Shown here: one piece after another, positions 23,711 through 26,547 of the stretch
Layout: the number at the start of each line of letters is the position of its first letter
Numbering within the stretch: position 1 is the stretch's first letter
Assembly: GCA_903825445.1 (NCBI GenBank)
Contig: CAIKAS010000136.1
Location: forward strand, 1 to 64,000
DNA length: 64,000 bases
Reading direction: 5' to 3'
From: an uncultured Acidobacteriia bacterium
GTDB lineage: Bacteria; Acidobacteriota; Terriglobia; Bryobacterales; Bryobacteraceae
Made by a program: the position numbers and the translations under genes
Notes under the pieces: model-generated
What the model was told of the DNA's origin: nothing
The model's input: only the letters and a program-made list of their open reading frames with translations
Databases searched by the model: none

Positions 23711-24652
23711 ATGACTACGCCAGCCACCGCGCTCCCCATGGCGCACGACGTCATCAGTCAAATCGGCAATACCCCACTGCTTCGTCTGGCGAAGGTCGAT
23801 AGTGCCTACCCCGGTGTCGAAATCTACGGCAAAGCTGAGTATTTCAATCCCGGCGGTTCCGTAAAAGACCGCGCCGCGCTCAACATGATTCGCGAAGGCG
23901 AACGCGCCGGTCTGCTCACTCCGGGCAAAGTTCTGATCGATTCCACCAGCGGCAACACCGGCATCGCCTACGCCATGATCGGCGCCGTGCGCGGCTACAA
24001 GGTCAAGCTCTGCCTGCCGCAAAACGCCTCACCGGAACGCAAGCGCATTCTGAAAGCCTACGGCGCGGAACTCGTCCTCACCGATCCCGGCGAAGGTTCC
24101 GACGGTGCCATCCGCAGAGTGCGCGAGATCTACGCCGCCGATCCCGACCGCTATTTTTACCCCGATCAATACGGTAACGATGCCAACTGGCGGGCGCACT
24201 TCAACTCCACCGGTCCCGAAATCATCGCGCAGACTGAAGGCCGCGTCACTCACTTCGTAGCGCTGCTTGGCACCAGCGGAACTTTCGTCGGCACCAGCCG
24301 TCGCCTGAAGCAGGATGTCCCCGGCGTGCAGTGCATCTCCGCGCAGCCCTCTACTGGCTTCCACGGCATTGAAGGCACCAAGCACATGGCGACTGCGATC
24401 ATTCCGCGAATCTACGATCCCAGGCTGGCAGACCGTAATATTGAGATTGAGACCGAAGACGCCTACAAGATGGTCCGGCGTCTGGCCCGGGATGAAGGCA
24501 TACTGGTCGGTATATCGGCTGGCGGCAACATCCAGGCCGCCACGCAACTGGCGAAGGAAATTTCCGCCGAAGGCCGCACCGGCGTGATCGTGACCATCCT
24601 TTGCGATGGCGCCGACAAGTATCTGAGCGAGCATTTCTGGGACGAAGAATAA
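23711..24652 (+). CDS. cysM: cysteine synthase (CysM type, probably CysO-dependent)
   Basis: A 313-residue fold-type II PLP enzyme. The PLP lysine is K52 in GGSVKDR, STSGNTG is the substrate loop and GTSGTFVG is the phosphate loop. In mycobacteria the enzyme linked to cysO and mec uses O-phosphoserine and the thiocarboxylated carrier CysO instead of free sulfide. The same neighbours are present here: the JAMM protease gene begins at the next base after the stop codon, then carrier and activator. O-phosphoserine use is therefore inferred. An ordinary O-acetylserine sulfhydrylase role cannot be excluded. First gene of a four-gene operon. Confidence 0.93.
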   Translation: MTTPATALPMAHDVISQIGNTPLLRLAKVDSAYPGVEIYGKAEYFNPGGSVKDRAALNMIREGERAGLLTPGKVLIDSTSGNTGIAYAMIGAVRGYKVKLCLPQNASPERKRILKAYGAELVLTDPGEGSDGAIRRVREIYAADPDRYFYPDQYGNDANWRAHFNSTGPEIIAQTEGRVTHFVALLGTSGTFVGTSRRLKQDVPGVQCISAQPSTGFHGIEGTKHMATAIIPRIYDPRLADRNIEIETEDAYKMVRRLARDEGILVGISAGGNIQAATQLAKEISAEGRTGVIVTILCDGADKYLSEHFWDEE

Positions 24653-25078
24653 ATGATTACCGTTGAACGACAACCCTGGCGCGAAATGGTGAACCACGCC
24701 CAGGCCACTTATCCGAACGAATGCTGCGGCGCCATGATTGGCACTATCGATGGCGACAACAAGACCGTCATCCACGCCATCGCGCTCGATAACGCCGCCG
24801 AAGGTCCGCAGGCAGCCTATTATCAGCTGCGTCCCGAAGATCTGCTGCGCGCCGACCGCGAAGCCCGCGAGCGTAAAATGGATCTGATCGGCATCTACCA
24901 CTCGCATCCTGATTGCGACGCGTATTTTTCCGTCACCGATTTGAAGAATTCCTGCCCGTGGTATTCGTTCGTCGTTCTGTCGATCAAGAACGGGCGTTTC
25001 GACCACGCCAACAGCTGGCTGCCCAACGCCGAACAGACACACGCAGAAAAAGAGGAACTACAATGGCCCGAATCTTAA
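24653..25078 (+). CDS. mec: JAMM/MPN metallopeptidase of the Mec (CysO-cysteine peptidase) type
   Basis: A 141-residue M67 protease. The zinc site is complete: E23, then H83-S-H85-P, S93 and D96 (YHSHP...FSVTD). In Mycobacterium, Mec cuts the isopeptide-like bond that holds new cysteine on the CysO C-terminus. In other sulfur-carrier systems, JAMM enzymes trim extra C-terminal residues to expose the diglycine. Both tasks are plausible here because the carrier has a 12-residue tail after its GG. The gene starts immediately after cysM and its end overlaps the carrier gene by 16 bases. Confidence 0.92.
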   Translation: MITVERQPWREMVNHAQATYPNECCGAMIGTIDGDNKTVIHAIALDNAAEGPQAAYYQLRPEDLLRADREARERKMDLIGIYHSHPDCDAYFSVTDLKNSCPWYSFVVLSIKNGRFDHANSWLPNAEQTHAEKEELQWPES

Positions 25079-25371
25079 TCCCAACCCCCCTCCGCCAGTT
25101 TGCGGAAAAGAATGACACCGTGGAAGCTGCCGGTGCGACCGTTGGCGAAGTGCTCGCCGCGCTCACCACGCGCTTCCCCGATCTGAAGAAGCAGCTCTAT
25201 AACGACGAGGGCAAACTCCGCAGCTTCGTCAACGTCTATCTGAATGACGACGATATCCGTTATCTTCAGAAGGATGCGACGCCCGTGGCCGCCACCGACA
25301 CGCTCTCGATCGTCCCCAGTATTGCTGGTGGTGCCGTTGCCTGCACCGCTGGCGGCGCGAGCAGCATCTAA
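25063..25371 (+). CDS. cysO: ubiquitin-like sulfur carrier protein (CysO/MoaD/ThiS family) with a C-terminal tail
   Basis: A 102-residue beta-grasp protein, with VGEVLAALTTRFPDLKKQLY and VNVYLNDDDIRYL as in CysO. The expected C-terminal diglycine is G89-G90 in VPSIAGG, but the frame runs on for 12 more residues, AVACTAGGASSI, with a second GG at 97-98. The carrier can only be adenylated and thiocarboxylated on a terminal glycine, so the tail should be cut off first. The ATG at 25063 lies inside the end of the protease gene. A longer frame extends upstream but would overlap that gene almost fully. Confidence 0.92.
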   Translation: MARILIPTPLRQFAEKNDTVEAAGATVGEVLAALTTRFPDLKKQLYNDEGKLRSFVNVYLNDDDIRYLQKDATPVAATDTLSIVPSIAGGAVACTAGGASSI

Positions 25372-25380
25372 CATCTGGTC

Positions 25381-26547
25381 ATGTCAAACGAAGTCTCTCT
25401 ATCCAAAGACGAAATCCTGCGCTATAGCCGCCACCTGATCATGCCGGAGGTCGGCATGGAAGGTCAGCTCAAGCTGAAGAAGGCGAGCGTGCTGCTCGTC
25501 GGCACCGGTGGCCTCGGCGCGCCGCTCGCGCTCTATCTGACGGCTGCCGGCATCGGTCGCATCGGCCTGGTGGATTTCGACGTTGTCGACTACACCAACC
25601 TGCAGCGCCAGGTCATCCACGGCACCAAGGACGTGGGCAAGCCCAAGATCGATTCCGCCATTGAAAGCATGCGCGACATCAACCCGTTCGTGCAGATCGA
25701 CCGCCACGAAACGGCGCTCACCAGCGAGAACGCGCTCGAAATTCTGAAGGACTACGACTACATCGTCGATGGCACCGACAATTTCCCCACGCGCTATCTC
25801 GTCAACGACGCCTGCGTGCTGCTGAAGAAGCCCAACGTTTACGGTTCCATCTTCCGTTTCGAAGGCCAGGCGACCATCTTCGCCTACCCCGGTGGGCCGT
25901 GCTACCGCTGCCTCTACCCGGAACCGCCACCTCCCGGCCTGGTTCCCAGTTGCGCCGAGGGTGGCGTACTCGGCATTCTGCCCGGCATCATCGGACTCGT
26001 GCAGGCAACGGAAACCGTGAAGCTCATTCTGGGCATCGGCCAGCCGCTGGTCGGACGCCTGATGTTGTATGACGCTCTCGGCATGAAGTTCCGCGAACTG
26101 AAACTCCGTCGCGATCCCGAATGCCCAATGTGCGGCGACCATCCGACCATCACGAAACTAATCGACTACCAGCAATTCTGCGGCATGCCGCAGCATGAGG
26201 AGCCCAAGCCCGTGTCCGCACAAAAGACGCCCGGAGAAATCAGCGCCGTCGATCTGAAAGCGAAGCTCGACCGTGGCGATAAATTCACGCTGATCGACGT
26301 CCGCGAACCGCACGAATTCCAGATCTGCCGGATTCCCGGCTCCACGCTGATCCCCCTCGGCGAACTGCCGAAACGTCTGAACGAACTCGACCCGTCGGCC
26401 GAGTACGTGATGCACTGCAAGATGGGTGGTCGCAGCGCCAAAGCGGTCGACCTGCTGAAGCAGTCTGGTTTTAAGAACGTCACGAACATGACGGGCGGCA
26501 TTACCGCGTGGAGCGATAAAGTCGATCCGAGTGTGCCGAAGTACTAA
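25381..26547 (+). CDS. moeZ: carrier-activating E1-like adenylyl/sulfurtransferase with rhodanese domain (MoeZ/MoeBR)
   Basis: A 388-residue protein. Its N-terminal ThiF/MoeB domain has the ATP loop GTGGLG (41-46), NLQRQ (73-77), the catalytic C191 in VPSCAEGG, and a four-cysteine zinc site (174, 177, 248, 251). A C-terminal rhodanese domain (about 285-388) has active-site C346 in HCKMGGRSA. It would adenylate the carrier's C-terminal glycine and hand over sulfur as a thiocarboxylate, as MoeZ does for CysO in mycobacteria. Here it is inside the cys operon, 9 bp after the carrier gene. It might also serve MoaD-like carriers elsewhere. Confidence 0.94.
   Translation: MSNEVSLSKDEILRYSRHLIMPEVGMEGQLKLKKASVLLVGTGGLGAPLALYLTAAGIGRIGLVDFDVVDYTNLQRQVIHGTKDVGKPKIDSAIESMRDINPFVQIDRHETALTSENALEILKDYDYIVDGTDNFPTRYLVNDACVLLKKPNVYGSIFRFEGQATIFAYPGGPCYRCLYPEPPPPGLVPSCAEGGVLGILPGIIGLVQATETVKLILGIGQPLVGRLMLYDALGMKFRELKLRRDPECPMCGDHPTITKLIDYQQFCGMPQHEEPKPVSAQKTPGEISAVDLKAKLDRGDKFTLIDVREPHEFQICRIPGSTLIPLGELPKRLNELDPSAEYVMHCKMGGRSAKAVDLLKQSGFKNVTNMTGGITAWSDKVDPSVPKY

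Follow-up and report, generated by a model that had tools for sequence, protein, structure and literature searches.

The stretch analysed here (the window) comprises 64,000 nucleotides (nt) of a contig from an uncultured bacterium of the Bryobacteraceae in the phylum Acidobacteriota (assembly GCA_903825445.1, contig CAIKAS010000136.1, positions 1 to 64,000). It carries the genes for a cysteine synthase, a JAMM metalloprotease, a small sulfur carrier of the CysO type and a carrier-activating enzyme, all in one run on the + strand. An earlier note on this DNA had placed the four genes in such a run, with junctions of 0-16 base pairs (bp) between them. The run stands as placed: 0 nt separate the synthase and JAMM genes, the carrier gene overlaps the JAMM gene by 16 bp, and the activator gene follows after 9 nt, so that the 16 bp junction is an overlap and not a gap. 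The adjacency of all four genes on a single strand is that of the operon type known as 4c. The features of the locus are as follows.

23711..24652, + strand: cysteine synthase, a CysM-like pyridoxal phosphate enzyme of 313 amino acids (aa); best profile TIGR01138 cysM
24653..25078, + strand: JAMM (Prok-JAB) metalloprotease, 141 aa; catalytic motif ECCG ... HSHPDCDAYFSVTD complete
25063..25371, + strand: CysO-type sulfur carrier with a ThiS/MoaD fold, encoded as a precursor of 102 aa; ThiS profile
25327..25332, + strand: diglycine G89-G90, conserved, predicted end of the mature carrier (GG in 257/257 homologues; end of the ThiS profile)
25333..25368, + strand: tail AVACTAGGASSI (12 residues), mostly a private insertion relative to near relatives
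25351..25356, + strand: second GG, residues 97-98, within the private insertion, not conserved
25369-25371, + strand: carrier stop codon TAA
25381..26547, + strand: activator of 388 aa, an E1-like ThiF adenylyltransferase with a rhodanese domain; two CXXC motifs

The carrier is assigned to the CysO type by its ThiS/MoaD fold, its conserved diglycine (GG) and the presence of CysO among its nearest solved relatives, the closest chains by sequence being 4n6e and 3dwg, the latter of which we take to be CysO of Mycobacterium tuberculosis. The match to the ThiS profile stops exactly at residue 90. The encoded C-terminus, ...SIVPSIAGG-AVACTAGGASSI, runs on for 12 residues after G89-G90 and so differs from the mycobacterial style of an encoded end at GG. 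The translation confirms this extension and the second GG at 97-98, both of which the earlier note had described, although comparison does not support a special standing of this particular tail or a meaning of the second GG. Alignment with eight near relatives shows that the window has about 45 extra nt between the GG codons and the activator start, and that the tail is largely this private insertion. Its genus mates lack the insertion and carry two to four different residues after GG; tails among the near relatives include AYGD, AHVG, SHVG, HV, SLV and KNA. In these relatives the apparent activator start (ATG, or GTG or TTG in two of them) lies out of frame inside the last carrier codons, in arrangements of the GG-CAT-GTC-TGA type; in the window the activator starts 9 nt past the TAA of the carrier and shares its frame. 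A conserved signal in the tail is thus ruled out for the window's family, as relatives' tails differ and the window's insertion is its own. The second GG is likewise ruled out as an alternative carrier end, because it belongs to the private insertion, and the GG with homologues in the relatives is that at 89-90.

The JAMM protease has its catalytic residues complete (E23 and HSH-x7-S-x2-D; Prok-JAB, 87 bits) and is the single strong Prok-JAB match in the genome. Two weak JAB matches elsewhere (G000:C347:11853-13345 and G000:C268:30281-31542) each lie beside a ThiF-like match and possibly belong to defence-type E1/JAB systems. The cysteine synthase scores 359 bits on TIGR01138 cysM, under the profile cut-off of 394. 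The activator contains two CXXC motifs, CYRC at 174 and CPMC at 248, both of which also appear in the consensus of an alignment of the window with 25 fused relatives. MoeZR proteins have been defined by the absence of this CXXC pair (PMC3227635), and judged by that sequence criterion the activator is of the MoeBR and not the MoeZR type, so that the description of it as MoeZ-like fails in the strict sense. In the same study mycobacterial CysO was thiocarboxylated by MoeZR only (PMC3227635), which makes a MoeBR-type activator a real difference from the model system. The operon is not supported as the sole route to cysteine in these bacteria: cysE scores above cut-off in 129 of 150 genomes of the window's family, its own among them. 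Cysteine therefore need not depend on the carrier, and the classical cysE route may coexist with it.

Carrier ends and the adjacent protease across Acidobacteriota

Searches for the carrier covered 150 genomes of the window's family, 129 of which gave a match, that of G092 being to a distant paralogue alone, and 396 genomes of the phylum, 171 of which matched at 1e-10, with three genomes common to both sets. From the 296 distinct genomes matched, 257 were read at their best match, one carrier per genome: 128 from the window's family, 37 from a sister family of the same class (f2) and 92 from other families. None of the 257 carriers ends at GG; GG-ending relatives, which the earlier note had named as part of a refuting case, are thus absent among them. 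The GG itself is kept in 257/257, and the residue directly after it is variable. Carriers encoded separately, with 1-26 residues after GG, account for 105 genomes (64 of the window's family, 31 of f2 and 10 others), 26 of these tails being one residue long and 31 two residues. In the other 152, carrier and activator match share one open frame (64/128 in the family, 6/37 in f2 and 82/92 elsewhere), giving fusions of about 480 aa in which the partner is the ThiF-rhodanese protein. Eighty named loci, which overlap the 257 genomes, comprise 32 fused and 48 split carriers, with none ending at GG. The alignment of C-termini that the earlier note had proposed as a check on tail conservation thus gives a divided answer: residues after GG are present in all 257 genomes, but their sequence is not conserved. 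Having a tail is general across the phylum; the tail sequence is not.

A structure model of one fused relative is poor as a whole and too weak to support a fold search (predicted local distance difference test, pLDDT, 65.5; predicted template modelling score, pTM, 0.44). At residues 85-99, which span its GG and linker, pLDDT is under 50, a weak indication given that parts of the ThiF domain are equally low. Two fused members of the family, L292 (G111) and L298 (G071), have the shortest linkers, with about eight residues from GG to an RYSR motif; in both, the JAMM is encoded away from the carrier. Two contigs of metagenome-assembled genomes titled Bifidobacterium breve and Acidimicrobiia (L124 and L101) bear operons that look acidobacterial, and mislabelled titles or mixed bins are possible.

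The fused and split forms have interchanged repeatedly. On a FastTree gene tree of 253 of the 257 rows there are at least 24 changes between them, and 15 in a tree of the window's family alone; midpoint-root parsimony gives 24 changes whichever direction is favoured (for example, four fusions and 20 splits, or 15 and nine). Such a number implies that what follows the GG is interchangeable. The window's genus (five genomes, namely the window's and four mates) is split throughout, always with residues after GG, and is placed among relatives that are mostly fused, a position that speaks for a split in this genus.

The protease accompanies the carrier with few exceptions. A JAMM gene ends no more than 400 nt upstream of the carrier start, or overlaps it, in 244 of the 257 genomes (126/128 in the family, 35/37 in f2 and 83/92 elsewhere), and 239 of the 245 JAMMs in the stretches read have the full motif; five of the remaining six keep HxH...S..D and one is truncated by a contig end. 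Twelve genomes show no JAMM in the part read; 11 of them have a strong match at another place in the genome, with a complete motif in four, and G289 has a weak match only. In all, 256 of the 257 genomes with a carrier have a JAMM. The window's carrier, with residues beyond an invariant GG and a JAMM in the genome, has the sequence features expected of a precursor that a JAMM matures. A Prok-JAB match is still found in 14 of 20 tested genomes of the family that lack the carrier (21 such genomes in all). At L479 (G163:C145) and L481 (G324:C16) the open frames with a Prok-JAB match are 482 and 490 aa long, and these are possibly JAMM fusions.

Two other carriers of the window's family served as controls. 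ThiS was matched in 58 of 61 genomes; from the best 30 loci 24 could be read, and 18 of these end at glycine (VGGG). MoaD was matched in 56 of 61, and in all 26 read from the best 30 loci the protein continues for 150-175 residues. The MoaD of the window's genome (L414, G000:C220:12448-12684; relatives L390-L419), the only copy tested with Pfam, is a MoaD-MoaE protein, and MoaD-MoaE would be a second GG carrier in need of a cut, possibly by the same JAMM. Outside Acidobacteriota and Actinobacteria, the carrier reads ...AGGI in Aliarcobacter cibarius and ...AGGRS in Burkholderia multivorans, and ends at GG in Piscinibacter. The A. cibarius carrier (L154, plasmid pACIB 41-5995) stands in a run of cysteine synthase, M67 protease and carrier genes. 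Two transposase genes break this run, and a gene annotated as rhodanese-like lies downstream of it.

Proposed maturation by the JAMM protease and its alternatives

ThiF/MoeB-type activation requires the free carboxylate of the last glycine. The same need for a free C-terminal glycine carboxylate has been described for the activation of MoaD (PMC4326299). A carrier that is never encoded with a GG end would almost certainly have to be cut, and one that lies within a 480-residue fusion would have to be cut internally. It is highly probable, on comparison of these sequences, that the operon serves a protein-bound sulfur route of the CysO kind in which the carrier is always made as a precursor, and in which the JAMM protease cuts after GG and may also release the cysteine. 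The carrier would be born inactive, with residues after Gly90 that number 12 in the window and 1-26 in relatives, or that make up the whole activator. The JAMM encoded upstream would cut behind the Gly-Gly and free the carboxylate; the ThiF-rhodanese protein would adenylate and then thiocarboxylate Gly90; and the cysteine synthase would form a carrier-cysteine adduct with O-phosphoserine or O-acetylserine as its substrate. The same JAMM, acting on the same type of bond after glycine, would then release cysteine and reset the carrier. Because the cut would discard it, the sequence after GG would be free to vary, and a short stretch overlapping the following gene, an insertion private to one genome (the case of the window) or the activator itself would all be allowed. 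That one JAMM performs both maturation and cysteine release is the simplest reading, and a dual role would explain both the variable sequence after GG and the switching between tail and activator.

The components of such a cycle have precedents. DRJAMM cuts MoaD-MoaE in Deinococcus (PMC8832034), MoaX requires a cut at Gly82-Ser83 (PMC4326299), CsRpn11 takes off the nine residues that follow a GG, SAMP precursors are cut by CsJAMM (PMC6043591), and the protease of the M. tuberculosis pathway hydrolyses the carrier-cysteine adduct (PMC3227635). The proposal of the earlier note, that the carrier needs maturation and that the adjacent JAMM is the best candidate for it, is strongly supported by the comparison and would apply more broadly than to a single tail, given that no carrier read ends at GG and 152 of the 257 are fused.

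Several points nevertheless weigh against this account. The query whose similarity served to find the carriers itself contains the GG, and the reading covered 257 of the 296 matched genomes, the other 39 being mostly those with the weakest matches. Several genomes with a carrier have their JAMM away from the operon. Three family genomes without such a carrier (G006, G021 and G039, which are 80-87% complete) have a MoaD match in a frame of 235-267 aa, the length of the MoaD fusion, yet no Prok-JAB match; in G006 and G039 the protein reads as a fusion, whereas G021 was unreadable. We infer the cut, the identity of the protease, its second role and the substrate of the synthase by comparison. The tail might instead be trimmed by another peptidase, whether a carboxypeptidase or a general protease, with the JAMM only releasing cysteine as in mycobacteria. 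Actinobacterial CysO-type carriers would suit this arrangement, since they end at GG already. The contrast with Actinobacteria drawn by the earlier note holds for the few records available, five of five (3dwg, 4n6e, Nonomuraea, Tsukamurella and an Arthrobacter plasmid, the last a weak match), and the Tsukamurella record has a JAMM beside its GG-ending carrier, so that the presence of a JAMM alone is no proof of maturation. Moreover, six of the 24 ThiS controls carry one or two residues after GGG, meaning that very short tails may be trimmed otherwise, and the account of MoaX names no protease for its cut (PMC4326299). A carboxypeptidase does not, however, explain 152 fusions of about 480 aa with an invariant internal GG, and the only protease that the literature examined identifies as cutting such a fusion in bacteria is a JAMM, acting on MoaD-MoaE (PMC8832034). 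Trimming by a different peptidase is accordingly considered improbable.

It is more doubtful still that the carrier works uncut, either because the internal GG is structural or because the activator reacts at an internal glycine without proteolysis. The covalent joining of 152 of the 257 carriers to their activator would hold enzyme and substrate together, but adenylation in the MoeB-MoaD system needs a free C-terminal carboxylate and MoaX needs its cut (PMC4326299), and the repeated changes between fused and split forms speak against any need to stay joined. An assembly or gene-calling artefact, such as a false stop or an indel, could also produce a tail that is private to the window, whose genome is a 6.27 Mb draft in 364 contigs with 9.2% contamination. 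Such an error is very hard to credit as the source of the tail: all four genus mates in the tree are also split with residues after GG, no carrier among the 257 ends there, and a false stop would merely yield one of the fused forms because the frames of carrier and activator match. Obligate maturation, with the JAMM as the protease, is the reading that we retain.

Cysteine codons in the tails of a sister family

In f2 the split tails are rich in cysteine. The first set of 37 genomes contains 31 split carriers, and cysteine occurs in 27 of the 31 tails, making up 57 of 235 residues; none is found among 3330 residues of the carrier bodies of these 37 genomes or among 90 residues of the six fused linkers. 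A second set of 19 further genomes, drawn from 30 loci out of 152 genomes with a match, has 15 split carriers, none of them ending at GG, with cysteine in 12 of the 15 tails. Taken together, 39 of the 46 tails contain cysteine, which accounts for 86 of 370 residues in the coding frame, as against 8/370 and 7/370 in the other forward frames and 5-7 in each reverse frame. The enrichment is concentrated towards the carrier stop, 62 of the 86 lying within five codons of it, and the 20 codons downstream of the stops in the same frame give 25 cysteines in 920. Codon choice is also unusual: tails of the first set use TGT 48 times and TGC nine times, whereas the neighbouring JAMM and activator genes use TGC 312 times and TGT 37 times. 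The 27 cysteine-bearing tails of this set divide into 18 with TGT only, five with TGC only and four with both, and all 46 tails together have TGT 67 and TGC 19, although the rows are related and the significance of these codon statistics is thereby overstated. Other T/C-ending codons in the first 31 tails end in T 37 times and in C 82 times, so that the reversal is specific to cysteine. A preference at the level of the codon points to decoding rather than to a role in the protein.

Tail codons would be free for control because the JAMM would discard the tail, and it is possible, though on balance we lean against it, that the f2 split tail is a cysteine sensor in which scarcity of charged Cys-tRNA makes the ribosome pause at the cysteine codons, mostly the locally rare TGT, and so yields more activator. 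In the 30 first-set loci measured, the activator gene starts 29-393 nt after the carrier. Examples of cysteine-bearing tails are at L195, L202, L216, L330, L353, L467 and L468; against a sensor, seven of the 46 tails have no cysteine. If the sensor were real, it would be a cysteine-responsive leader placed in the part of a metabolic protein that is thrown away, instead of in a leader peptide of its own, and thus a new location for an amino-acid sensor.

An attenuator structure is not supported in f2. A similar hairpin followed by T's lies right after the stop in six alike loci of the 31 (L236, L238, L318, L330, L333 and L334), and its energy beats all ten crude shuffles in only three of them (L238, L318 and L330); unrelated hairpins at L324 and L353 also beat their ten crude shuffles. 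The end of the tail pairs with the sequence ahead of the activator gene no better than dinucleotide shuffles do (mean z -0.34 over 27 loci, two below -2). The window's family is without such a pattern, having seven cysteines in 188 tail residues, all TGC, and the sensor reading is inapplicable to the window itself, with its one TGC codon and 9 nt gap.

Relation to known systems

Carriers with one or two residues after GG that are trimmed by a JAMM are known in QbsE/QbsD and HcyS/HcyD, which serve siderophore and methionine routes. Three further elements are already on record, namely the operon type, a MoaD-activator fusion shared with Acidobacteria, and JAMM cutting of a carrier fusion. An obligate-precursor rule for the operon, and cysteine-codon tails, were not found in a literature search by title and abstract start that left subscription journals mostly outside. 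What began as a single odd C-terminus thus becomes a phylum-wide rule in which the carrier is born blocked in every case read, and one small JAMM would gate both entry to and exit from the cycle. Ubiquitin offers a parallel, being likewise born as fusions and tailed precursors, and the natural fusions are ready-made substrates for testing maturation.

The type 4c operon that Iyer, Burroughs and Aravind described (2006, PMC1779556), in which Acidobacteria ('Susi') are already listed, has the parts found in the window, that is, a ThiS/MoaD-like carrier, an E1 with rhodanese, a JAB protease and a cysteine synthase. Its authors also suggested that the JAB protease could free carriers fused to other proteins; the portion of that account consulted says nothing of carriers that extend beyond GG or are joined to their activator, as those read here do or are. 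The CysO/CysM/Mec+/MoeZR system of M. tuberculosis (PMC3227635) resembles the window in carrier fold and operon partners, and its protease releases cysteine. It differs in that the CysO chain of 3dwg ends at GG, as none of the Acidobacteriota carriers read does, and in its MoeZR, where the window has within the operon an activator that is MoeBR-type by the CXXC criterion. MoaD-MoeBR fusion families of Euryarchaeota and Poseidoniales, with Acidobacteria proteins more than 55% identical to them (PMC11237513, 2024), have the same domains as the Acidobacteriota fusions but are placed under molybdopterin biosynthesis, and the consulted part of that source does not connect the fusion with cysteine synthase, with maturation by a JAMM or with split forms. 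MoaX (PMC4326299) and the MoaD-MoaE of Deinococcus (PMC8832034) share the principle, each being a GG carrier that is fused to a partner and cut after GG. They belong to another pathway and have another partner, whereas in the Acidobacteriota the partner is the carrier's own activating enzyme.

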